Source: Chamaesiphon minutus PCC 6605
GTDB taxonomy: Bacteria; Cyanobacteriota; Cyanobacteriia; Cyanobacteriales; Chamaesiphonaceae
DNA length: 64,000 bases
Assembly: GCF_000317145.1 (NCBI RefSeq)
Contig: NC_019697.1
Location: forward strand, 5,817,889-5,881,888
Direction: 5' to 3'
Notes under the pieces: model-generated
What the model was told of the DNA's origin: nothing
What the model saw: only the letters and a program-made list of their open reading frames with translations
Database searches by the model: none
In this document: positions 7,301 to 35,885 of the stretch, piece by piece
Layout of the letters: each line of letters begins with the position of its first letter
How positions within the stretch are numbered: position 1 is the first letter of the stretch
Translations under genes and position numbers: made by a program

Positions 7301-8290
7301 CTAGCGAAACATGCTGCTAACTGAATTATCTTCATGCACCCGCCAGATGGCTTCGCCCAATAAATTGGCGACAGAGAGCACTTTGAGCTGGGGAAATGGC
7401 TGCTTGACTGGCGGTAGCGTATCGGTGACGATAACTTCTTCAAATACGCCGCTGGAGAGCCGTTCGATCGCAGGTGGCGAAAATACCGCATGGATCGCAC
7501 AAGCATAAACTTGACGCGCACCCTGTTGGCGCAAAATTTTTGCACCTTCGGTAATCGTCCCACCCGTATCGATCATGTCATCGACGAGAATCGCCGTTTT
7601 GCCAGCAACGTCACCGATGACATTCATCACTTCCGCGACATTATGCGCCTGACGCCGTTTGTCGATGATGGCTAGTGGGGCATCGTTGAGTTTTTTGGCA
7701 AATGCACGCGCACGCGCGACCCCGCCGACATCTGGCGATACGACGACAACATCTGGCAGATTTTTGGCAAGCAGATAATCGATAATTACTGGCGAACCGT
7801 AAATATGATCCAGCGGAATATCAAAGTAGCCTTGGATCTGAGCGGAATGGAGATCCATCGCCAAGACGCGATCGGCACCAGCCATAGTAATCTGATTGGC
7901 AACTAATTTTGCTGTAATCGATTCGCGTCCGGCAGTTTTGCGATCGGCACGAGCATAGCCATAATAGGGCAGCACCGCCGTAATCTGTCGCGCCGATGCC
8001 CGCCGACAAGCGTCGATCAGGATGAATAATTCCATCAAGTTATCGTTCACTGGATGGCAAGTCGGTTGAATTAAATAAACGTCACAACCACGAATAGATT
8101 CTTGGATCTGAACGTAAATTTCTCCATCTGCAAATCGTTTTCGCATCATCGGGCCGAGATCTAACCCTAAATAACGAGCGATTTCTTTGGCTAGGGGCAC
8201 GTTAGCATTGCCAGAAAACAGTCGAAGACGGCTGTTATCATTACTAATCGATGGGATTGTCGGAAGCGTCAAGGTAGCAGACCGGATCAC
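7301..8290 (-). CDS. prs: Ribose-phosphate pyrophosphokinase
   Basis: Makes PRPP from ribose 5-phosphate and ATP for purine, pyrimidine, histidine and tryptophan synthesis. Motifs seen are RLFSGNANVPLAKEIA at the N terminus, KRFADGEIYVQIQESI, YYGYARADRK, the ATP/Mg site MDLHSAQIQGYFD, and the PRPP loop VDDMIDTGGT near residue 235. The start is GTG at 8290, because an in-frame TGA lies a few codons upstream and no ATG is available. The 329-residue length is normal. The first codons and the upstream region are repeated in decayed form at 8445-8707, so prs appears to have acquired a duplicated promoter region. Confidence 0.95.
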   Translation of the reverse strand: MIRSATLTLPTIPSISNDNSRLRLFSGNANVPLAKEIARYLGLDLGPMMRKRFADGEIYVQIQESIRGCDVYLIQPTCHPVNDNLMELFILIDACRRASARQITAVLPYYGYARADRKTAGRESITAKLVANQITMAGADRVLAMDLHSAQIQGYFDIPLDHIYGSPVIIDYLLAKNLPDVVVVSPDVGGVARARAFAKKLNDAPLAIIDKRRQAHNVAEVMNVIGDVAGKTAILVDDMIDTGGTITEGAKILRQQGARQVYACAIHAVFSPPAIERLSSGVFEEVIVTDTLPPVKQPFPQLKVLSVANLLGEAIWRVHEDNSVSSMFR

Positions 8291-8707
8291 AGCAGACCCT
8301 CAATAAGTTCTATATTTTGCAAGGCAATTCTAACACTCTGATTCACCACTCGTCTCTTTCGACCGAAAAAAAAATGATTTCGACTAAATTTTGGTAAAGT
8401 ACATACCACAAAAATTAACCATGTCGTTTTAGGTGCCGATTGGGACGAGCGATTTCTCTCGATCGCGGTACATTAGCGTTGCCACAATACAATCGCAGGT
8501 GGCTGCAATCGTTACTAATCGATGGGATTGTCGGCAGCGTCAAGGTAGCAGACCGATCGCCGTAGACCCTCAATAAGTTCTAAATTTTGCAAGGCAATCC
8601 TAACACTCTGATTCACAACTCGTCTCTTTCGACCAAAAAAAAATGATTTCGACTAATTTTGGTAAAGTATTTGACAAAAAAATTAACGATGTCATTTTAT
8701 GTTGCGA
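8174..8707 (-). repeat. Diverged tandem duplication of the prs 5' end and upstream region
   Basis: Two direct copies about 263 bp long lie at an offset of 271 bp: 8174-8436 (inside and upstream of prs) and 8445-8707. Shared blocks include ACGAGCGATTTCT, ATCGATGGGATTGTCGG, AGCGTCAAGGTAGCAGACC, AGACCCTCAATAAGTTCTA and TTTTGCAAGGCAAT. The outer copy has lost the reading frame by small indels, so it is a prs fragment. No other gene is convincing between 8291 and 8899. Confidence 0.85.
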
Positions 8708-19289: not shown

Positions 19290-19381
19290 GTTAGTTGATA
19301 GTTGATAGTTGATAGTTGATAACGATTCTCCCTGTCCCTCCCCCTCTCCCCCTCCCCCTCTCCCCCTCTCCCCGTCCCCCC
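19289..19381. repeat. TTGATAG heptamers and CT-rich tract at the start of the chorismate enzyme
   Basis: Four TTGATAG units (19294-19320) and a C/T-only stretch of CTCCCC units (19327-19380). The tract reads as a Pro/Leu/Ser peptide in the frame of the next gene. Confidence 0.85.
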
Positions 19382-20755
19382 TTGCACTCCACTCTTCCTC
19401 TCAACAATCGTACTGGCTCGCAAATATTCGATCGATTATTCAGACACGAGCCGATTGCGACATTATTAGAAAGTCCTAGTCATGGCGAGCGCGATTTGTT
19501 AACAAGGTACTCGATTTGTGCGGGGTCACCACAAATTATTAACCAACAGCCGCAGCTTTTTACCCCAGCAGTCGGCGAAATTTTAGATTGTTTGCGTGGT
19601 TTACTCGCAACTGTCGATAACCAACAAACATCGAGCTTGCCAGCCCATTTACCCTTCACTGGCGGCTGGTTGGGCTGGTTGGGCTACGAATTAGCCTGGG
19701 AAATCGAAAAACTCCCAGATCGGCGAGTAGATCCCCTACCCTTCCCGGTGGCTTATTGGTATGAGCCATCTGCTTTTGCAATCGTGGATAATTGGGAGCA
19801 AGTACTATATTTATCCGCCAATACAACCACAGAATTAGACGCGCTCATCGCCAAACTCGATCGAGCTGATGAGATTGACATTAAGCCTTCTAGCGGTTCA
19901 GTATCAGCGATCCCCGCAGCGACAACAGCGACAGATTTACATTTTTTCACCACCGAAGCAGAATATATCCAATCGATAGACAAAGCCCAAAAGTATATTC
20001 AAGCTGGGGATATTTTTCAGACGAATTTATCCGTCCGGTTTAGTTGCCAAGCCTCGATCGAGAGTTGGGAAATCTATCAAAGATTGCAACGCATCAACCC
20101 TTCACCATTTGCCAGCTATTGGCAAACACCTTGGGGATCGATGGTAAGTTGCTCTCCCGAACGACTGGTGAAATTGCAACAACAGCAAGCGACGACGCGC
20201 CCGATTGCCGGAACCAGAAAACGCGGTCAAAGTCAAGCCCAAGACGAGTTGTTAGCGATCGAATTAACGACTAATACTAAAGAAATTGCCGAGCATATCA
20301 TGCTAGTAGATCTCGAACGCAACGATCTCGGACGCGTCTGTGAATGGGGTAGCGTTAAAGTCGATGAATTACTCTCGATCGAGCGATACAGTCATGTCAT
20401 GCACTTAGTGAGTAATGTTACTGGCAAATTAGCTCCCCAGTTCGACTCGATCGATCTCATTGGTGCGATGTTTCCTGGCGGGACGATTACAGGCTGTCCC
20501 AAAGTTCGCTGCATGGAAATTATTGCTGAACTCGAACCATTACAGCGCAATCTGTTCTATGGCTCCTGCGGATACCTAGATAAACGTGGCTATCTAGATC
20601 TAAATATTTTGATTCGGACATTGCTGTATCATAGAGGCACAGTATGGGGTCAAGTTGGTGCGGGTATCGTCGCCGATAGTCATCCCCAACAAGAGTGGCA
20701 AGAATCTCTTCAGAAAGCTGCCGCTCAAATTGCCGCTTTGGGCATTATAAATTAG
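19316..20755 (+). CDS. pabB: Chorismate-binding enzyme: aminodeoxychorismate or anthranilate synthase component I
   Basis: Converts chorismate with ammonia to aminodeoxychorismate (PabB) or anthranilate (TrpE). The C-terminal catalytic half has GDIFQTNLSVRF, TRPIAGTRKRG, DLERNDLGRVC and FPGGTITGCPKVRCMEII. The N-terminal half carries LLES and an RYSI strand like the tryptophan-binding region. The position that is Lys in E. coli PabB (PIKGT) is Ala here, so PabB and TrpE cannot be separated with confidence. I lean to PabB from the FPGGTITGCPK form. The start is unclear. The longest frame starts at a TTG (19316) and reads a translated CT repeat. A TTG at 19382 would begin just before HSTLPLNNRTG. 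Confidence 0.82.
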   Translation: MITILPVPPPLPLPLSPSPRPPLHSTLPLNNRTGSQIFDRLFRHEPIATLLESPSHGERDLLTRYSICAGSPQIINQQPQLFTPAVGEILDCLRGLLATVDNQQTSSLPAHLPFTGGWLGWLGYELAWEIEKLPDRRVDPLPFPVAYWYEPSAFAIVDNWEQVLYLSANTTTELDALIAKLDRADEIDIKPSSGSVSAIPAATTATDLHFFTTEAEYIQSIDKAQKYIQAGDIFQTNLSVRFSCQASIESWEIYQRLQRINPSPFASYWQTPWGSMVSCSPERLVKLQQQQATTRPIAGTRKRGQSQAQDELLAIELTTNTKEIAEHIMLVDLERNDLGRVCEWGSVKVDELLSIERYSHVMHLVSNVTGKLAPQFDSIDLIGAMFPGGTITGCPKVRCMEIIAELEPLQRNLFYGSCGYLDKRGYLDLNILIRTLLYHRGTVWGQVGAGIVADSHPQQEWQESLQKAAAQIAALGIIN

Positions 20756-21000
20756 GGGGTAGGCTTAGGCTTAGGCTTTAGGCTTTAGGCTTTAGGCTTT
20801 AGGCTTTAGGCTTTAGGCTTTAGGCTTCAGGCTTTAGGCTTTAGAACTGCGTTCTCTATTCTCTCACTCCCAGTCCTCGCATCCCTTCACACTATCCATT
20901 ACCTATTCCCTATTCCCTATTCCCTATTCCCTATTCCCTATCCACTATCCACTATCCACTATCCACTATCTACACCTAACATCTAACACCTAAAGCCTAA
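20756..21000. repeat. Composite repeat block, left arm of a large inverted repeat
   Basis: GGCTTTA heptamers (20761-20844), a unique core at 20841-20908, then CCCTATT heptamers (20905-20940) and CCACTAT heptamers (20941-20968), ending in CCTAAAG-like units before pipX. The 68-nt core is present in exact reverse complement at 25462-25529. Confidence 0.9.
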
Positions 21001-21003
21001 CTA

Positions 21004-21276
21004 ATGACTTCCGAAAACTATCTCAACCACCCTACCTTCGGCTTGCTATATCGCATCTGTGTTGTTGAGGAAAACCAAGAATTATTTACCACTCTATACG
21101 CACAGCGGATTTTTTTTCTAGTTACCAATAACGCTGACGGATTATCGTTTCAGCCGCTGACTCGTGCTGATGCGCGGTTGACGCTCGATAACCGTATCCG
21201 CGTCCTCAAACGTAACGGACAAATCCTCGAATACCAAGAGCTACAAGCCATGATTCAACAAAACTTTCCTGGGTAA
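21004..21276 (+). CDS. pipX: PII-interacting protein X
   Basis: A small cyanobacterial coactivator that binds either the PII protein GlnB or the nitrogen regulator NtcA, according to 2-oxoglutarate and ATP/ADP levels. The 90 residues match the family closely. The N-terminal Tudor-like domain reads NYLNHPTFGLLYRIC, then LFTTLYAQRIFFLVTN. Two C-terminal helices follow (RADARLTLDNRIRVLKRNG and EYQELQAMIQQNF). It is followed 108 bp on by pipY, the usual cyanobacterial pairing. Repeats fill the upstream spacer, so its promoter must lie in or before them. Confidence 0.96.
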   Translation: MTSENYLNHPTFGLLYRICVVEENQELFTTLYAQRIFFLVTNNADGLSFQPLTRADARLTLDNRIRVLKRNGQILEYQELQAMIQQNFPG

Positions 21277-21384
21277 CACATTGCCACCCTAGAGATTGCA
21301 CCAACAGACAGAAGAATAATTAGGATAATAAATATATTAGTGGAGCAATCCTCAGCCCCCAATCCCCAATCCCCAATTCCCTAG

Positions 21385-22053
21385 ATGACGATCGCGCATA
21401 ACATTGAGACTATTCGTCGAGATTTGCCAGCTTCGGTAAAATTGATGGCAGTGAGCAAGCAAGTGTCTGTCGCGCAAATGCGAGAGGCTTATGCCGCTGG
21501 GATTCGAGATTTTGGTGAGAGTCGGATTCAAGAAGCGCAGGCAAAACAACAGGAATTGAGCGATTTATCCGATATCTGCTGGCATCTGATCGGACATTTG
21601 CAAGGAAATAAGGTTCGCAAAGCCGTCCAAATATTTGACTGGATTCACTCAGTCGATAGCCTCAAACTGTTGCATCAGATAGATCGTGTTGCTGGCGAAT
21701 TGTCAAAAAGTCCTCGGATTTGTTTGCAAGTTAAGATTTTGCCAGATCCAGACAAATATGGCTGGACTATTCCTGAATTAATAGCAGATTTAACTCAAAT
21801 AAACTGTTGCGAATTTATCAAAATTAGTGGTTTGATGGCAATTCCGCCACTAGGATTGACGATCGAGCAAACGCAAGAATTGTTCGATAACGCACGAGAT
21901 CTCAGCCATCAGATATCGCAGCAGCCAGGATTGCAGCTCCAGATGACAGAGTTATCCATGGGGATGTCTGGAGACTATCGCTCGGCGATCGCGGCTGGTA
22001 CGACAATTATTCGCTTAGGAAGTATTATATTTGGCGATCGAACGGAAAACTAA
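21385..22053 (+). CDS. pipY: YggS/PROSC-type PLP homeostasis protein PipY
   Basis: A pyridoxal-phosphate-binding protein of the YggS/PLPBP family, involved in vitamin B6 and amino acid balance and genetically linked to pipX. The 222 residues fold as a single TIM barrel. The PLP lysine sits in KLMAVSKQVS near residue 25. Further marks are DFGESRIQEAQAK, WHLIGHLQGNKVRK, LSMGMSGDYRSAIAAG and TIIRLGSIIFG. Cyanobacterial pipX-pipY are normally co-transcribed. Here the gap is 108 bp. Confidence 0.95.
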   Translation: MTIAHNIETIRRDLPASVKLMAVSKQVSVAQMREAYAAGIRDFGESRIQEAQAKQQELSDLSDICWHLIGHLQGNKVRKAVQIFDWIHSVDSLKLLHQIDRVAGELSKSPRICLQVKILPDPDKYGWTIPELIADLTQINCCEFIKISGLMAIPPLGLTIEQTQELFDNARDLSHQISQQPGLQLQMTELSMGMSGDYRSAIAAGTTIIRLGSIIFGDRTEN

Positions 22054-22717
22054 ACTATCGTCACTATGCACGGATTTGTAATAAAAGTGCGTTTCGATCT
22101 ATTTATTTAATTGATGTTAATTAAAGCTGTTGGTTTGACTGACAATAATTTATTCTCGTCTTAAAATACTAAAACTGTGTTAAGTAGTATTCTCTAAGTA
22201 TTAATACCTACTTCTGCTGTCTGAGTACCACTACTCCTAATGCTAACTAGGCAATTACTTAAAATATAGTACGACCCAGTACCGATTTCGATAAGTGGAC
22301 ATATTTTATACGTCAATTGGCTGACGAGCCAGATCTAGTTACAAAAAGCTGCGACTTACGGCAAGGGAAAATAGCTATCGTAGACGAAACCTATACGGGT
22401 ATTAGAGAATTTAATTTTTTAATATTTTCTAAATATCTGTAATTCCATGGTATTATTCTCTCTAGATTGGCATTGCGTGTGTATTTGTACTACTCACACC
22501 TGTGAGTTCGGTCGCAGTACATCCGTAAATTTTAAGTAATTATGCTTAGACAACAACCGATGCTACTTTTTACCTGCGGAACATTTCGCGAACGCAAAAA
22601 GACCATATCGATGGGTTGCTAAGCTGGCAGCTTTAAGTTAGCCATTCCGAGCATGATTTATCAGTATCTGACAGTCAAAAAGCATCTATACCATCACAGG
22701 GCGCAGGAGTAGTAAAA
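22054..22717. other. 664-bp spacer upstream of sepF, no gene seen
   Basis: AT-rich, with no open frame that looks coding on either strand, no tRNA and no tandem repeat. It probably contains a long sepF leader or an unrecognised small RNA, but I see no structure to support either. Confidence 0.4.
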
Positions 22718-23299
22718 GTGAAAGTTTTAGATCGATTCAAAGATTTCATGGGTTTAAACGAAGACGAATACAGTGATTACGATGAAACGGATAGTGACGC
22801 TTATCGTGGCGAATATCAACCACCCGAACCCCCAGTCGCACAACCCGTAGTAGAAGAAGAACGTCGTGGGTTCCGCCGCGTTACCGAAACGCGTGGGGCG
22901 AGCAAAATTAATAATGTAGTCGGGATGCCAGGAATCGTTCATGGCGTTTCGGAAATGATTTTAATCGAGCCGCGTTCTTTTGAAGAAATGCCGCAAGTAA
23001 TTGATGCTTTACGCCACAGAAAGTCGGTGATCCTCAATATGACCTTGATCCGGCAAGAGGAAGCTCAAAGATCGGTGGATTTTGTCGCAGGTGGAACATA
23101 CGCCATCGACGGCCACTATGAACGGATTGGTGATAATATTTTCCTGTTCACGCCCAATTGCGTTCAAGTTAGCACTCCGACAAACGTCATTCACGATCCG
23201 GTCAACCAACAAACACCGATCGAGAAGACAGTTCGCAACAATCGCACTAGCACGCCATTGTCCACCTGGGGTAACGAACCGATCCAAGCAGCTCAATAA
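22718..23299 (+). CDS. sepF: Cell division protein SepF
   Basis: A membrane-associated FtsZ-bundling protein (Cdv2/YlmF family). The 193 residues show an acidic, disordered N-terminal linker ([19 protein letters not shown]) after a short amphipathic start ([12 protein letters not shown]) suited to membrane binding. The conserved SepF core follows at about 80-160: [38 protein letters not shown], and [18 protein letters not shown] six bases upstream is possible, but the ATG is preferred. It lies between pipY and proC, a conserved cyanobacterial order. Confidence 0.95.
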
Positions 23300-23370
23300 C
23301 ATTAGTCAACCTAATCGATGGCAACTACAATCGGTACCCAAATCTGTTCGATAACTGAAAGTAGTAACTT

Positions 23371-24171
23371 ATGGCTGTCAAGTTAGGTGTAATCGGTGGC
23401 GGGGTCATGGCATCGGCGATCGTATCCCGCCTGCTCGCTGGTGGTACTTATCAAAGTACCGAAATCCTCATTAGCGAACCGACACTCTCTCAACGAGAAG
23501 CTCTCCACCAACAGTATGGAGTAGGGGTAACTGATGATAATAATTTGGCGGCAATGTCTCCAGTCCTGATGCTGGCAATCAAGCCCCAAGTCTTCGATCG
23601 GGTTGTGGCTCAATTATCGCCACTGAGCAACAACCCCCAATTAGTACTTTCGATTCTAGCAGGAGTCAAGATCGCCCAGCTAGAAGGCGCGTTTCCCGAT
23701 CGAGCCGTCATCCGGACAATGCCCAATACGCCTGCAACTGTCGGGATGGGCATTACCGCGCTTTCAGCCGGAGCGCGGGTTGACGCTGCACAAATAGAAC
23801 TAGCAACCCAAATCTTTCAAGCCGTGGGTGAAGTCATCACCGTGCCAGAATCTTTGCTGGATGCGGTGACTGGTTTGTCTGGTTCTGGCCCTGCATATAT
23901 AGCCATCGCGATCGAGGCTCTAGCCGATGGCGGTGTCGCCGCAGGTCTCCCTCGTCCGATTGCCGATCGGCTGGCATTACAGACCGTTTTAGGCACGGCT
24001 ACACTCTTAAATGAATCGCAGATACACCCCGCCCAATTAAAGGATCGCGTTACTAGTCCGGGCGGGACGACTATTGCCGGAATTACTAAATTAGAGCAAG
24101 CAGGTTTTCGATCGGCTCTTATTGAAGCTGTCATTGCCGCAGCCACTCGATCGCAGGAGTTGGGCAAGTAG
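23371..24171 (+). CDS. proC: Pyrroline-5-carboxylate reductase
   Basis: Makes proline from pyrroline-5-carboxylate with NAD(P)H. The N-terminal Rossmann motif is GVIGGGVMASAIVSRLL. The middle has MLAIKPQVF and RTMPNTPATVGMGITAL. The C-terminal dimer domain contains the family signature LSGSGPAYIAIAIEALADG and DRVTSPGGTTIAGITKLE. The 266 residues are the standard length. It sits 71 bp after sepF on the same strand. Confidence 0.96.
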   Translation: MAVKLGVIGGGVMASAIVSRLLAGGTYQSTEILISEPTLSQREALHQQYGVGVTDDNNLAAMSPVLMLAIKPQVFDRVVAQLSPLSNNPQLVLSILAGVKIAQLEGAFPDRAVIRTMPNTPATVGMGITALSAGARVDAAQIELATQIFQAVGEVITVPESLLDAVTGLSGSGPAYIAIAIEALADGGVAAGLPRPIADRLALQTVLGTATLLNESQIHPAQLKDRVTSPGGTTIAGITKLEQAGFRSALIEAVIAAATRSQELGK

Positions 24172-24273
24172 AGAATCGCTTTTTTCCCACAACCCGCTTC
24201 CCACTCCCCGCTGCCTCGTCTAGCTTTTCATCCTGCGAGCCAGCACTGGTTATATCTAACCCATTTTTAACCT

Positions 24274-25446
24274 ATGGCTTCAAATTCTAGTGCCGATCGC
24301 CGCTCCCCACCAAAATCCCGTCAACAAAATCGCTCGCGGTCGCACTCGCAACGACAGCAAGTTCAGCAGTTAAATTCGCCACAAGAGCGAGAATGCCGAC
24401 AATCTGTCTCAATCTTCATTCATCTGGTGCGGCTGAGTATTTGTGGACTGGGAGCCAGTACGATCGCTGGTACCACGATCTCGATTCTGAATCCACCCCA
24501 ACAGGCGGCCAAGATCGAACCGCACGTACTACCACCGACACTACCACAGATCGAAGATATCAAAATCACTCATATCATTCCCGCACTCGATCGCCGCCTT
24601 CAAGCAACGCTGAATCGGAGCGATAAAATCGATCCCAGCTATCTATTCGTCGATCTAAATTCAGGAGAATATACCCAACTGGGAGCCGATCGCGTATTGC
24701 CTGCGGCAAGTACGATTAAATTACCGATTTTAATCGCTCTATTTCAGGATGTGGATGCCCAGAAAGTCCAACTCGAAGAGAAACTCACCATCGACAAAAA
24801 TTCGATCGCTGGGGGTTCGGGGGATTTGCAAGCGCAAAAACCGGGAACGCAGGTCAGCATCCTCGTCGCCGCCACCAAGATGATGACCATCAGCGACAAT
24901 ACCGCCACCAACCTAATTATCAACCGCTTAGGCGGAGCCACCAAACTCAATCAACGCTTTCGGAATTGGGGACTGAAAGTGACGACCATCAATCGTCCCC
25001 TGCCAGATCTCGAAGGTAAAAATACTACCACACCTAGAGAATTAGCCCGAACGATGATGGCGATCGATCCGCCAACGCGATCGCCCCACGGTGGTAAACT
25101 GCTCTCAGATTCGTCAACAAGCCAAATTCTCAGCATCATGAGCAACACCATAGGCAACACGATGTTGCCCAAAGGTTTGGGTGCAGGCGCGAAAATTGCC
25201 CACAAGACAGGCGATATCGGCTCGACAATTGCCGATGTCGGCGCGATCGAGCTACCATCGGGTAAAAAATATCTCGCCGCAGTCATCGCCAAACGCCCCT
25301 ACAACGACCCCGATGGCCCCGCCTTAGTCCGCAGCATGTCCAAAATCGTCTACGAACAATTCTCGCGTCCGCTCCCCACCGCCACACCTAATCCCCAAGC
25401 AGATGCGGGGTTTCCGAAAACGGTCTTTATTAGGACTAGAGAATAG
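24274..25446 (+). CDS. Class A beta-lactamase-like serine hydrolase
   Basis: A penicillin-recognising hydrolase. A basic disordered N terminus (about 1-45) is followed by one hydrophobic segment (about 54-72), so it is probably membrane-anchored with the enzyme outside. The catalytic motifs are in order: STIK with Ser146 and Lys149, SDN near residue 210, and HKTGD near residue 310. The 390 residues exceed a secreted beta-lactamase because of the N-terminal part. It could be a true beta-lactamase or a cell-wall carboxypeptidase-like enzyme. Cyanobacteria carry several such proteins without resistance roles. Its 3' end abuts a repeat block. Confidence 0.88.
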   Translation: MASNSSADRRSPPKSRQQNRSRSHSQRQQVQQLNSPQERECRQSVSIFIHLVRLSICGLGASTIAGTTISILNPPQQAAKIEPHVLPPTLPQIEDIKITHIIPALDRRLQATLNRSDKIDPSYLFVDLNSGEYTQLGADRVLPAASTIKLPILIALFQDVDAQKVQLEEKLTIDKNSIAGGSGDLQAQKPGTQVSILVAATKMMTISDNTATNLIINRLGGATKLNQRFRNWGLKVTTINRPLPDLEGKNTTTPRELARTMMAIDPPTRSPHGGKLLSDSSTSQILSIMSNTIGNTMLPKGLGAGAKIAHKTGDIGSTIADVGAIELPSGKKYLAAVIAKRPYNDPDGPALVRSMSKIVYEQFSRPLPTATPNPQADAGFPKTVFIRTRE

Positions 25447-25577
25447 GGAATAGGGAATAGTGAATAGGTAATGGATAGTGTGAAGGGATGCGAGGACTGG
25501 GAGTGAGAGAATAGAGAACGCAGTTCTAAAGCCTAAAGCCTAAAGCCTAAAGCCTAAAGCCTAAAGCCTAAAGCCTA
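25441..25577. repeat. Composite repeat block, right arm of the large inverted repeat
   Basis: Contains AATAGGG heptamers, the 68-nt core at 25462-25529 (exact reverse complement of 20841-20908) and CCTAAAG heptamers (25527-25577). The order of the parts mirrors the block at 20756-21000. Confidence 0.92.
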
Positions 25578-25586
25578 TCTACTATC

Positions 25587-26267
25587 ATGCACTTATTAAT
25601 TCCCGCCGCTGGCATGGGTAAACGGATGGGGAGCGATCGTAATAAGCTCCTAATTACCCTACTTGGCAAACCCTTACTCGCTTGGACGTTAATTGCTGCC
25701 GAAAATGCAACATCGATTAGTTGGATTGGCATTATCGGACAGCCAGAAGATCGAGCCGATCTCGAAAATATTCTCAGCAACATATTTATATCCAAACCCG
25801 TCCAATTTATCCAAGGTGGCTCTACTCGGCAACAATCGGTCTATAACGGCTTGCAGGAATTACCAGATGAAGCAGAGCGAGTATTAATTCACGATGGGGC
25901 TAGATGCCTAGCGACACCAGATTTACTCGATCGATGTGCCGCCATTCTTGCCACCTGTCCCGGATTAATTGCCGCCGTTACCGTAAAAGATACAATTAAA
26001 GTTGTAGATAATACGGGCATCGTTATCGATACCCCCGACAGATCCAATCTGTGGGCAGCTCAAACACCCCAAGGATTTGAGGTCAAACTGCTCAAAGCCT
26101 GTCACGACAAAGGACGCGACCTCGGCTGGGAAGTCACTGACGACGCCGCATTATTTGAAAAATGCAGTCTCCCCGTCACCATCGTTCCCGGTGAAGAAAC
26201 CAACCTTAAAATCACCACTCCAGTCGATCTAGCGATCGCGGAATTTATTCTTAAGAGTAGGGGTTAA
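25587..26267 (+). CDS. ispD: 2-C-methyl-D-erythritol 4-phosphate cytidylyltransferase
   Basis: Third step of the MEP isoprenoid pathway, which feeds carotenoid and phytol synthesis in cyanobacteria. The CTP-binding loop is PAAGMGKRMGSDRNKLL at the N terminus. Further family marks are GGSTRQQSVYNGL, VLIHDGARCL, AVTVKDTIK, RSNLWAAQTPQGF, VTDDAALFE and the C-terminal NLKITTPVDLAIAE. The 226 residues are standard. The ATG follows directly on the right arm of the inverted repeat, so the repeat block replaces a normal leader. Confidence 0.95.
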   Translation: MHLLIPAAGMGKRMGSDRNKLLITLLGKPLLAWTLIAAENATSISWIGIIGQPEDRADLENILSNIFISKPVQFIQGGSTRQQSVYNGLQELPDEAERVLIHDGARCLATPDLLDRCAAILATCPGLIAAVTVKDTIKVVDNTGIVIDTPDRSNLWAAQTPQGFEVKLLKACHDKGRDLGWEVTDDAALFEKCSLPVTIVPGEETNLKITTPVDLAIAEFILKSRG

Positions 26268-26293
26268 GCTTTAGGCATTAGGCATGAGGATTG

Positions 26294-26309
26294 AAGACGC
26301 TTGCGTCTT
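26294..26309. repeat. 16-bp perfect palindrome
   Basis: AAGACGCTTGCGTCTT, related to the palindromes at 22-37, 7236-7249 and 40327-40342. It lies 27 bp after the ispD stop without a T-run. Confidence 0.6.
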
Positions 26310-26340
26310 GCTAATTCTCCCTGCTGATTCACTAATCCCT

Positions 26341-26455
26341 GGCGTTGCTGATTTCAGGTATGATTTCTTACTTTGGCAATCTCTTCTCCCCGCTGTCTTG
26401 ATGCGCGCTCCCCCGCTTTCCTGCCTAGCCTTTCATACATCAATCCAGCAACGCC
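26341..26455. mobile_element. Small inverted-repeat (MITE-like) element
   Basis: A 115-bp element whose ends are GGCGTTGCTG at the left and its reverse complement CAGCAACGCC at the right. The similarity extends inward to a TATGA motif on both sides. It has no coding capacity. A shorter relative with the same ends lies at 44415-44479. No target duplication is clear. Confidence 0.65.
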
Positions 26456-34442: not shown

Positions 34443-35885
34443 AACTAGAATAGCTAACTCAATCGTACTTACTAACTAATTGCACTTATTACAATGCCAA
34501 TTGAAACTAAAATCAAACATGAGATCCGATTAATTTAATTTAGTGTAGCAGAAAGCTCGACCAACTCATTAGTCAAGCCGAGATTAATTAGTGCAAATAA
34601 ATTACAAAATAGCTTCTAAAAGTTCAGTTGAATATTCTTCGTCAAGTGTCGCCAAGAATCTCTTACTTCTAACACTTAACTTTCGACTTTTATTTTCACT
34701 AATTATGTTAACTGCTATATGTCGTAAAATCGCAAAATTAGCTGGAGCATTATCTTTCCTAATTCGACTATCATCTTCTTTAAAAGCAACATCAAGCACC
34801 CAGTGAAGAGAATTTTCTATCGACCAATGACTTCTAATTCCCTCTGCTAATTTTTGAGCATCGCTCTCTAGACTACTGATAAAATAACGAGTTTCTACAC
34901 TCGTCTTTCCGCCGACAACTCGAACTGATTCTACCATGCCAATACTAGTTAACTTTTTCCATTTTTGCAGTGGATCTATTTGCTCCGCAACATCTGTTAT
35001 CATTAAATAATTACGAATTTCTTCTCTACCTCTATTCATCTCTCTACTGTTGAAGCTACTCAGGTTGAGGTCTTTTCCCTGAGTTTCAATTGCTTGTTTA
35101 AATAGCTGCTTTACTTGTTTGTACAAGGTCGGTTGATTCTTTTTTACAGCAATTACATAATCTGCATCTTTTTCGACGATTTTTTTGACTATTTCTCTTT
35201 GACATCCCATTGCGTCGATGGTAACGATACATCCTGCTAAATCCAAGATTTGAATCAGTTCGGGAAGTGCTGTGATTTCATTAGATTTTCCTTCTACTTT
35301 CTTTTGACCTAATACTAATCTATTACTTGCAGCCCAGGCACTGACTGTATTAATTACACCTTGACCATTCTTTTCATCTCCTGAGTTTCGAGATTGTTTT
35401 CCATCAAAGGCAATTATTTCTCCTGCGGTTATTTTACTTATTCCTTTAATCCAACTCAGGAATGATTTATTAAATTCATCAGGATTAATTTGTGAAAATA
35501 CTCTAGCAAATGTATCATGAGATGGGATTCCATTCGGTAGTTCTAGGAACTTTTCTAACCATTTTTTTCTGGCTATACCATACATTTCTATATCTATCCA
35601 TCCGTCCGCCCCACATACTACAGCACAAATGGAGATCGTGATGATGTCGATTAGTTTATGTTTTTTTCCACGTTCAATCCTAATGTCTTCTATGTCGTCA
35701 AAGTGTTCTGCGATACTATGCTTAGGCTTCAGCTTCATTTTACATGATATTAGTTCCAAATCAACTTAACACAATTAATTAGCTAAAGCTATCGACGGGT
35801 ATAGATTTCACATCTTTGATGAATCAAATTTACATCTAGTTTCTAAGTGTTTTTAATAATATAAGATTTAAGTGCGTTCACCCTG
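34401..35885 (-). mobile_element. Complete ISAs1-family insertion sequence, 1485 bp
   Basis: Ends are terminal inverted repeats CAGGGTGAACGCA (13 perfect bases, 18 of 21 matching further in). A 10-bp target duplication CTTTATTGTT flanks it on both sides. It carries one intact transposase gene on the minus strand. About 200 bp of non-coding sequence lie between the transposase stop and the left end, and about 150 bp on the right. It is inserted in the same orientation as the gene it interrupts. Intact ends, an exact duplication and an intact transposase mean the insertion is recent. Confidence 0.95.
34602..35738 (-). CDS. ISAs1-family transposase
   Basis: A DDE transposase of the ISAs1 (H-repeat-associated) type. 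N-terminal DDE_Tnp_1-associated region: EHFDDIEDIRIERGKKHKLI, ICAVVCGADGWIDIEMYG. Catalytic residues appear as Asp in IIAFDGKQSR, Asp in IVTIDAMGCQREI and Glu in HWSIENSLHWVLDVAF. The start is the ATG before KLKPKHSI at 35738; a TTG seven codons earlier is possible. At 378 residues the protein is full length with no stop or frameshift, so it is probably active. Confidence 0.95.
   Translation of the reverse strand: MKLKPKHSIAEHFDDIEDIRIERGKKHKLIDIITISICAVVCGADGWIDIEMYGIARKKWLEKFLELPNGIPSHDTFARVFSQINPDEFNKSFLSWIKGISKITAGEIIAFDGKQSRNSGDEKNGQGVINTVSAWAASNRLVLGQKKVEGKSNEITALPELIQILDLAGCIVTIDAMGCQREIVKKIVEKDADYVIAVKKNQPTLYKQVKQLFKQAIETQGKDLNLSSFNSREMNRGREEIRNYLMITDVAEQIDPLQKWKKLTSIGMVESVRVVGGKTSVETRYFISSLESDAQKLAEGIRSHWSIENSLHWVLDVAFKEDDSRIRKDNAPANFAILRHIAVNIISENKSRKLSVRSKRFLATLDEEYSTELLEAIL

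Follow-up and report, generated by a model that had tools for sequence, protein, structure and literature searches.

Two spacers that flank the genes pipX-pipY-sepF-proC-bla in Chamaesiphon minutus PCC 6605 carry almost the same sequence in opposite orientations. We analysed this inverted repeat in a stretch of 64,000 nucleotides, hereafter the window (NC_019697.1, positions 5,817,889 to 5,881,888, forward strand), which lies inside the 6,284,095-bp contig of a genome of 6.76 Mb in three contigs. The two arms of the repeat are very probably two copies of one non-coding spacer module of Chamaesiphon, and we place the pair, as a product of local copying, among the short tandem and small dispersed repeats known from cyanobacteria. 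Sequence comparison suggests that copying or homogenisation probably took place after C. minutus and its sister species Chamaesiphon polymorphus CCALA 037 separated, or close to that time.

Structure and uniqueness of the two arms

A preliminary description of the window had reported an exact 68-bp inverted repeat. The cores at 20841-20908 and 25462-25529 are indeed exact reverse complements, and the exact match at its longest extends to 80 nt (20829-20908 on the + strand and 25462-25541 on the - strand). The ungapped arms, first put at about 140 bp, measured 145 nt and were 97% complementary, with 4 mismatches. Arm A (20793-20937, +) is the module copy in the spacer between pabB and pipX, and arm B (25433-25577, -) is its partner in the bla-ispD spacer, where it covers 131 of the 140 nt from the bla stop codon to the ispD ATG; the distance between the two is 4495 nt. 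A 21-nt piece of the core occurred twice in the window, whereas 100 shuffled windows gave a mean of 0.00 occurrences; the pair is therefore not explained by chance. Misassembly was also rejected, as the gene order agrees with that of relatives and the arms differ at four positions.

Each arm combines a TAGGCTT-type heptamer array with a small hairpin (AGAAC-TGC-GTTCT), C-rich DNA and another heptamer array, and the arrays are mirrored on both sides as originally described. In terms of array units on the + strand, arm A has TAGGCTT before the hairpin and CTATTCC after it, and arm B has GGAATAG before and CTAAAGC after it. On the pabB side, a TAGGCTT array of 12.4 copies (20760-20844, +; TRF) leads into the hairpin at 20843-20855 (+), and C-rich arrays of ATTCCCT and then CTATCCA units occupy 20898-20970 (+; TRF) upstream of pipX. 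At the bla end of arm B, a GGAATAG array (25433-25472, +) includes the bla stop codon, the hairpin lies in the opposite orientation at 25515-25527 (-), and a CTAAAGC array of 7.4 copies (25526-25577, +; TRF) ends 10 bp before ispD.

The TAGGCTT array unit is abundant in C. minutus. A 19-mer taken from this array had 552 exact matches in the C. minutus genome (overlapping registers counted separately), with 0 for its reversed control; all eight same-genus genomes in the search also had matches to the 19-mer, and the 12 other genomes had none. Because of this abundance, only the centre of the arms, about 70 nt, is informative. A 75-nt probe from this centre gave full-length matches to the C. minutus genome at two places only, both inside the window, and the next best places, among 20 matches with E up to 10, reached 97% identity over 39 nt and 94% over 32 nt. 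As to whether the core is a common dispersed repeat, a question raised by the preliminary description, the answer is divided: the full core is not common, and its hairpin and heptamer parts are.

A dispersed hairpin and the polarity of its flanks

The hairpin belongs to a family dispersed in Chamaesiphon. Its 11-mer GAACTGCGTTC was found 24 times in C. minutus, compared with 4 times for the reversed control, 21 times in C. polymorphus, the nearest relative (control 5), and 29 times in a third Chamaesiphon genome (control 0). Counts in the other 18 of the 20 relatives were 0-4, with controls of 0-9; a clear excess was therefore confined to three genomes of the same genus, out of 21 searched. 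The flanks were read at 72 sites, comprising 24 of 24 in C. minutus, 19 of 21 in C. polymorphus (two at contig ends omitted) and 29 of 29 in the third genome. G exceeded C in the left 80 nt and C exceeded G in the right 80 nt at 68 of the 72 sites (23/24, 19/19 and 26/29 in the same order), and this polarity was constant, with array units that vary between the three genomes. One of the C. minutus sites lies inside a predicted open reading frame (ORF); according to crude gene calls, 14 separate genes running with the hairpin, 4 separate genes that run opposite to it, and 5 separate divergent genes. Just two pairs of sites within 10 kb were found among the 24, too few for a test of local clustering into inverted pairs.

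Elsewhere in the window, the hairpins GGAACGC-TT-GCGTTCC (22-37) and AAGACGC-TT-GCGTCTT (26294-26309) also adjoin heptamer arrays. Their stems differ at several pairs, and they possibly represent another dispersed family.

The strand composition of the arrays was surveyed in 464 kb of the C. minutus genome, consisting of twenty 20-kb stretches and the window, with genes called as crude ATG-to-stop ORFs. Runs of period 7 were found in 26 of 195 spacers between tandem genes, in 5 of 64 between convergent genes and in 3 of 59 between divergent genes, compared with 5 of 379 coding ORFs. Of 82 heptamer or octamer arrays, 60 were classed and 22 set aside, 16 of them for want of a clear skew and 6 because they lay in genes or at edges. 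Relative to the coding strand, arrays nearest a stop codon were G-rich in 25 of 35 cases and those nearest a start codon C-rich in 22 of 25 (Fisher p = 5e-6), which amounts to a spacer that is G-rich on the left and C-rich on the right of the + strand regardless of the directions of the genes. Since this arrangement holds on either strand, the polarity of the module survives reversal, as seen in both arms. Strong G-to-C flip points genome-wide numbered 43, against 33 of the opposite kind, making the rule a weak one, and this counts against the explanation favoured below. A general rule of hairpins at G-to-C flip points was rejected, since just 3 of the 43 bear a stem of at least 6, two of them of the same hairpin family, compared with 2 of 33 opposite points and displaced controls of 0.000 and 0.009.

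Differences between close relatives were examined at an ABC-transporter gene (named by reading its sequence). In C. polymorphus, this gene is adjoined by the hairpin, the 9 nt beyond it and an array, and the same 27 nt of the probe are present as at ispD; at that place C. minutus has neither array nor hairpin. Module placement therefore differs between the closest relatives, at a single site that stands at a C. polymorphus contig end and at which the change could have run in either direction. The C. minutus ABC-transporter gene (C1:2444938-2446474; stretches L357 and L352) also seems to be short by about 230 bp near its 3' end, compared with a single ORF in C. polymorphus.

Such a difference in placement, together with the dispersal of the hairpin and the finding of the core at neither spacer in seven other same-genus genomes, is what might be expected if a mobile miniature element, similar to a miniature inverted-repeat transposable element (MITE) or a REPIN, had inserted twice in opposite orientations, with no copying between the sites. 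We consider this improbable, because exact-hairpin sites outside the pair have no more than 5-14 nt in common on its right side, and one variant 22 nt, because no element with a fixed length of 145 nt was seen elsewhere in C. minutus, where the full core is confined to its two places, and because the arrays vary from site to site. Terminal inverted repeats or target duplications were not noticed on reading the arm ends, but both ends lie in arrays, which may hide them, and the repeat listing covered repeats of at least 20 nt.

Conservation of the hairpin in three genomes could instead point to selection on a shared regulatory sequence, such as an operator, a terminator or an RNA structure, acting at both spacers. 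The pair adjoining the fixed 11-mer is consistent with this to a degree, being G-C at 43 of the 72 sites, A-T at 6, G-T at 18, T-G at 1 and unpaired at 4. Such selection is nevertheless extremely unlikely as an explanation of the arms. The arm spacers fold no better than shuffled sequences (RNA, z of -0.32 and 0.09; DNA, z of -0.13), so that a stable RNA or DNA structure was rejected; neither arm contains a terminator-like or promoter-like site, and positions 20400-26400 show no excess of them; a search of seven other species did not find the core at their orthologous spacers; and the 54 nt shared by the arms to the right of the hairpin are not kept by other members of the family. The orthologous spacers of these seven same-genus genomes differ in sequence, and no sequence-specific function of the module at pipX or ispD is therefore indicated. 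A search of the whole window against Rfam returned only two tRNAs above thresholds, and no known RNA family in the arms. LexA boxes have a half-site spacing of 4, and a LexA box was rejected on the spacing of 3 found here, no search for such boxes having been made.

Probable copying between spacers and the order of the genes

The arms are far more alike than any other compared pair of the family, which supports the recent copying or gene conversion proposed at the outset. To the right of the hairpin, their exact identity extends over 54 nt, compared with 5, 14 and 11 nt for the next best exact-hairpin pair in C. minutus, C. polymorphus and the third genome, respectively; the closest of the sites with a changed hairpin (L003, C1:5462444) has 22 nt beyond the hairpin in common with the arms. 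On the ispD side, C. polymorphus and C. minutus are 95% identical over 763 nt. If the arms had diverged for as long as the species, a hand calculation puts the chance of 80 identical positions at about 0.95^80 = 0.02, and it is from this figure that the timing of the copying or homogenisation given above is derived.

Under the explanation that we favour, the arms are two copies of one module consisting of a G-rich heptamer array, a small hairpin, and a C-rich stretch and array; arrays of this kind fill many C. minutus spacers. One copy, most likely that between pabB and pipX, would have been made recently from the bla-ispD copy, either by copying in inverted orientation or by gene conversion from spacer to spacer, and the recipient and donor spacers may already have carried similar heptamer arrays. 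The inverted placement would be tolerated because the module, when reversed, stays G-rich on the left and C-rich on the right, so that either orientation suits the spacer. The polarity kept on reversal would thus be what allows the module to lie inverted.

As to direction, we lean towards copying from ispD to the pipX spacer, judging from the comparison with C. polymorphus. Array and hairpin at ispD are common to both species, and the C. polymorphus contig carries seven AAAGCCT units there, as in the window, and extends just 9 nt beyond the hairpin. Upstream of pipX, C. polymorphus has 123 bp of sequence; the hairpin is absent from it, and its alignment with the window spacer gave only short, low-scoring pieces (best E 0.15). 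Several observations weigh against copying as outlined here or against its direction. Left of the hairpin, exact runs in other pairs reach 25 nt in C. minutus, 24 nt in C. polymorphus and 35 nt in the third genome, compared with 15 nt for the arms; because the left-side arrays give other pairs long matches, the arms are distinguished on the right side only. In C. polymorphus, 27 nt of the 75-nt core probe are visible at arm B before the contig ends; on the pipX side the sequence breaks off 123 bp upstream of the gene, and an older arm A may lie beyond that point. Arm B also has the minority orientation of the hairpin relative to tandem genes (4 against, 14 with), which would favour arm A as the source. 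The C. polymorphus assembly yielded neither pabB nor bla, and only remote homologues at 29-43% identity were found.

Local inverted pairs were also sought in the twenty 20-kb stretches of C. minutus (limits: at least 50 nt, 90%, not arrays), the survey taking in the window and stretches L222-L224 as well. Three other pairs were found in the twenty stretches, located in two of them. Two, of 68 and 53 nt (L259), look like gene pieces by appearance. The third is a 117-nt inverted pair at 96% (L269:2189-2305 and 2877-2993), which is hairpin-rich, lies within GTGGATA-type heptamers and forms another local inverted spacer copy. One array pair was obtained from L222 (C1:5461062-5461100 and 5462444-5462482), a weaker inverted pair of the same module with arms 1.4 kb apart, flanking a citrate-synthase-like gene (a name based on reading); its array part is 52 nt at 94%.

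The preliminary description had proposed that the 4.6-kb block is invertible. Recombination between the arms would then act as a switch, flipping pipX-pipY-sepF-proC-bla so that a nitrogen regulator and a division gene would be expressed differently. Inverted arms of 145 nt at 97%, including 80 nt exact, are long enough for homologous recombination in principle. The arms are, however, members of a dispersed spacer family, a single order and orientation was found in all seven informative relatives, and no site-specific recombinase was recognised among the 36 of 43 window ORFs of at least 150 aa that were scanned. The claim is thus unsupported, and a switch is very unlikely. RecA-dependent homologous recombination across the 80-145 bp may on rare occasions invert the block, as it may wherever such repeats occur, and this would not make the block a switch.

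The order der-cbiQ-pabB-pipX-pipY-sepF-proC-bla-ispD is conserved as far as the contigs of the relatives extend. Among eight same-genus genomes, the pabB-pipX junction was present in 6, the bla-ispD junction in 5 and at least one of them in 7, and these seven informative genomes all have the order and orientation of the window; in one genome (G002), bla was matched by a 51-residue piece only. C. polymorphus is not informative on orientation, because its contigs end inside the spacers. As the core was not found at the pabB-pipX and bla-ispD spacers of the seven, the conserved order goes no further than to establish the assembled orientation as the ancestral one.

The gene names pipX-pipY-sepF-proC-bla given earlier agree with the Pfam domains: pipX (21004-21276; PF12058), a pipY-type gene of the Ala_racemase_N family (21385-22053; PF01168), sepF (22718-23299; PF04472), proC with a P5CR_dimer domain (23371-24171; PF14748, PF03807) and a beta-lactamase family gene of the Beta-lactamase2 type, here called bla (24274-25446; PF13354). 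Upstream of arm A lies a chorismate-binding enzyme of the pabB/trpE type, here called pabB (19316-20755; PF00425, PF04715), and downstream of arm B lies ispD (25587-26267; PF01128). All named genes between 16.9 and 30.3 kb, including these, are on the + strand; der and cbiQ were named by reading the sequence, and der is consistent with its Pfam domains. The called TTG start of the chorismate-binding enzyme (19316-19382) reads through a CTCCCCCT array to give a Pro/Leu-rich N-terminus, and the real start is probably further in. At 8174-8699, two tandem 271-bp units with 86% matching overlap the start of a ribose-phosphate pyrophosphokinase gene (7301-8290, -). A DDE transposase gene (34602-35759; DDE_Tnp_1 and an associated domain) was the sole mobile-element gene recognised among the ORFs scanned.

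Implications and comparison with known repeats

The pair of arms provides an example of spacer replacement in repeat-rich cyanobacteria while genes and their order stay fixed, and the symmetry of strand composition in the module offers a simple reason why copies may turn up inverted. It also carries a caution: in genomes of this type, a set of genes enclosed by exact inverted repeats is not necessarily a switch. For studying the origin of heptamer arrays, a concrete target is the hairpin that lies at G-to-C junctions in three Chamaesiphon genomes. As a tentative and rather unlikely extension, the Chamaesiphon-specific hairpin might be a tiny mobile or seeding element that inserts, or starts array growth, at a change from G-rich to C-rich sequence; arrays would grow outwards on both strands, and whole spacers would then be copied between neighbouring gaps in either orientation.

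The small dispersed repeats (SDR) described by Elhai et al. 2008 reportedly form hairpins and are located beside tandem heptamers. The hairpin family resembles them in being short and present in many copies at different sites (24, 21 and 29, against controls of 4, 5 and 0). Cyanobacterial SDR are outlined in PMC2884548 as dispersed, possibly mobile repeats of about 20 bp, and are also named in PMC3733652 and PMC3116915. Like REP (repetitive extragenic palindromic), REPIN and MITE sequences, the hairpin is short, palindromic, intergenic and dispersed. Unlike REP and REPIN sequences, it lacks a GTAG or CGTC tag, the tags given in PMC3733652, and in contrast to MITEs and REPINs, no fixed-length element containing it was seen at several sites. 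A literature search, covering titles and abstract openings among the matches listed, returned no account of this repeat in Chamaesiphon for the terms used.

The arrays themselves are comparable to the heptanucleotide short tandemly repeated repetitive sequences (STRR) of Calothrix and Nostoc, sharing with them tandem 7-bp units in intergenic spacers and many occurrences per genome. PMC2670836 describes STRRs as usually 7-bp repeats whose function is not known. The skew near stop and start codons also parallels that of G-rich heptamers of Xanthomonas and Nostoc, which, according to PMC4692102, are found on the sense strand up to 50 bp from stop codons and on the anti-sense strand up to 50 bp from start codons; the array units here differ in sequence from those given there. 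What sets the present repeat apart from STRRs as described is the specific hairpin that joins two different arrays, together with the near-identity of two entire spacers in inverted orientation. Two features are mildly surprising, namely a fixed hairpin where oppositely skewed arrays meet and a design symmetric under inversion; otherwise, the repeat is of a known kind among cyanobacterial spacer repeats.

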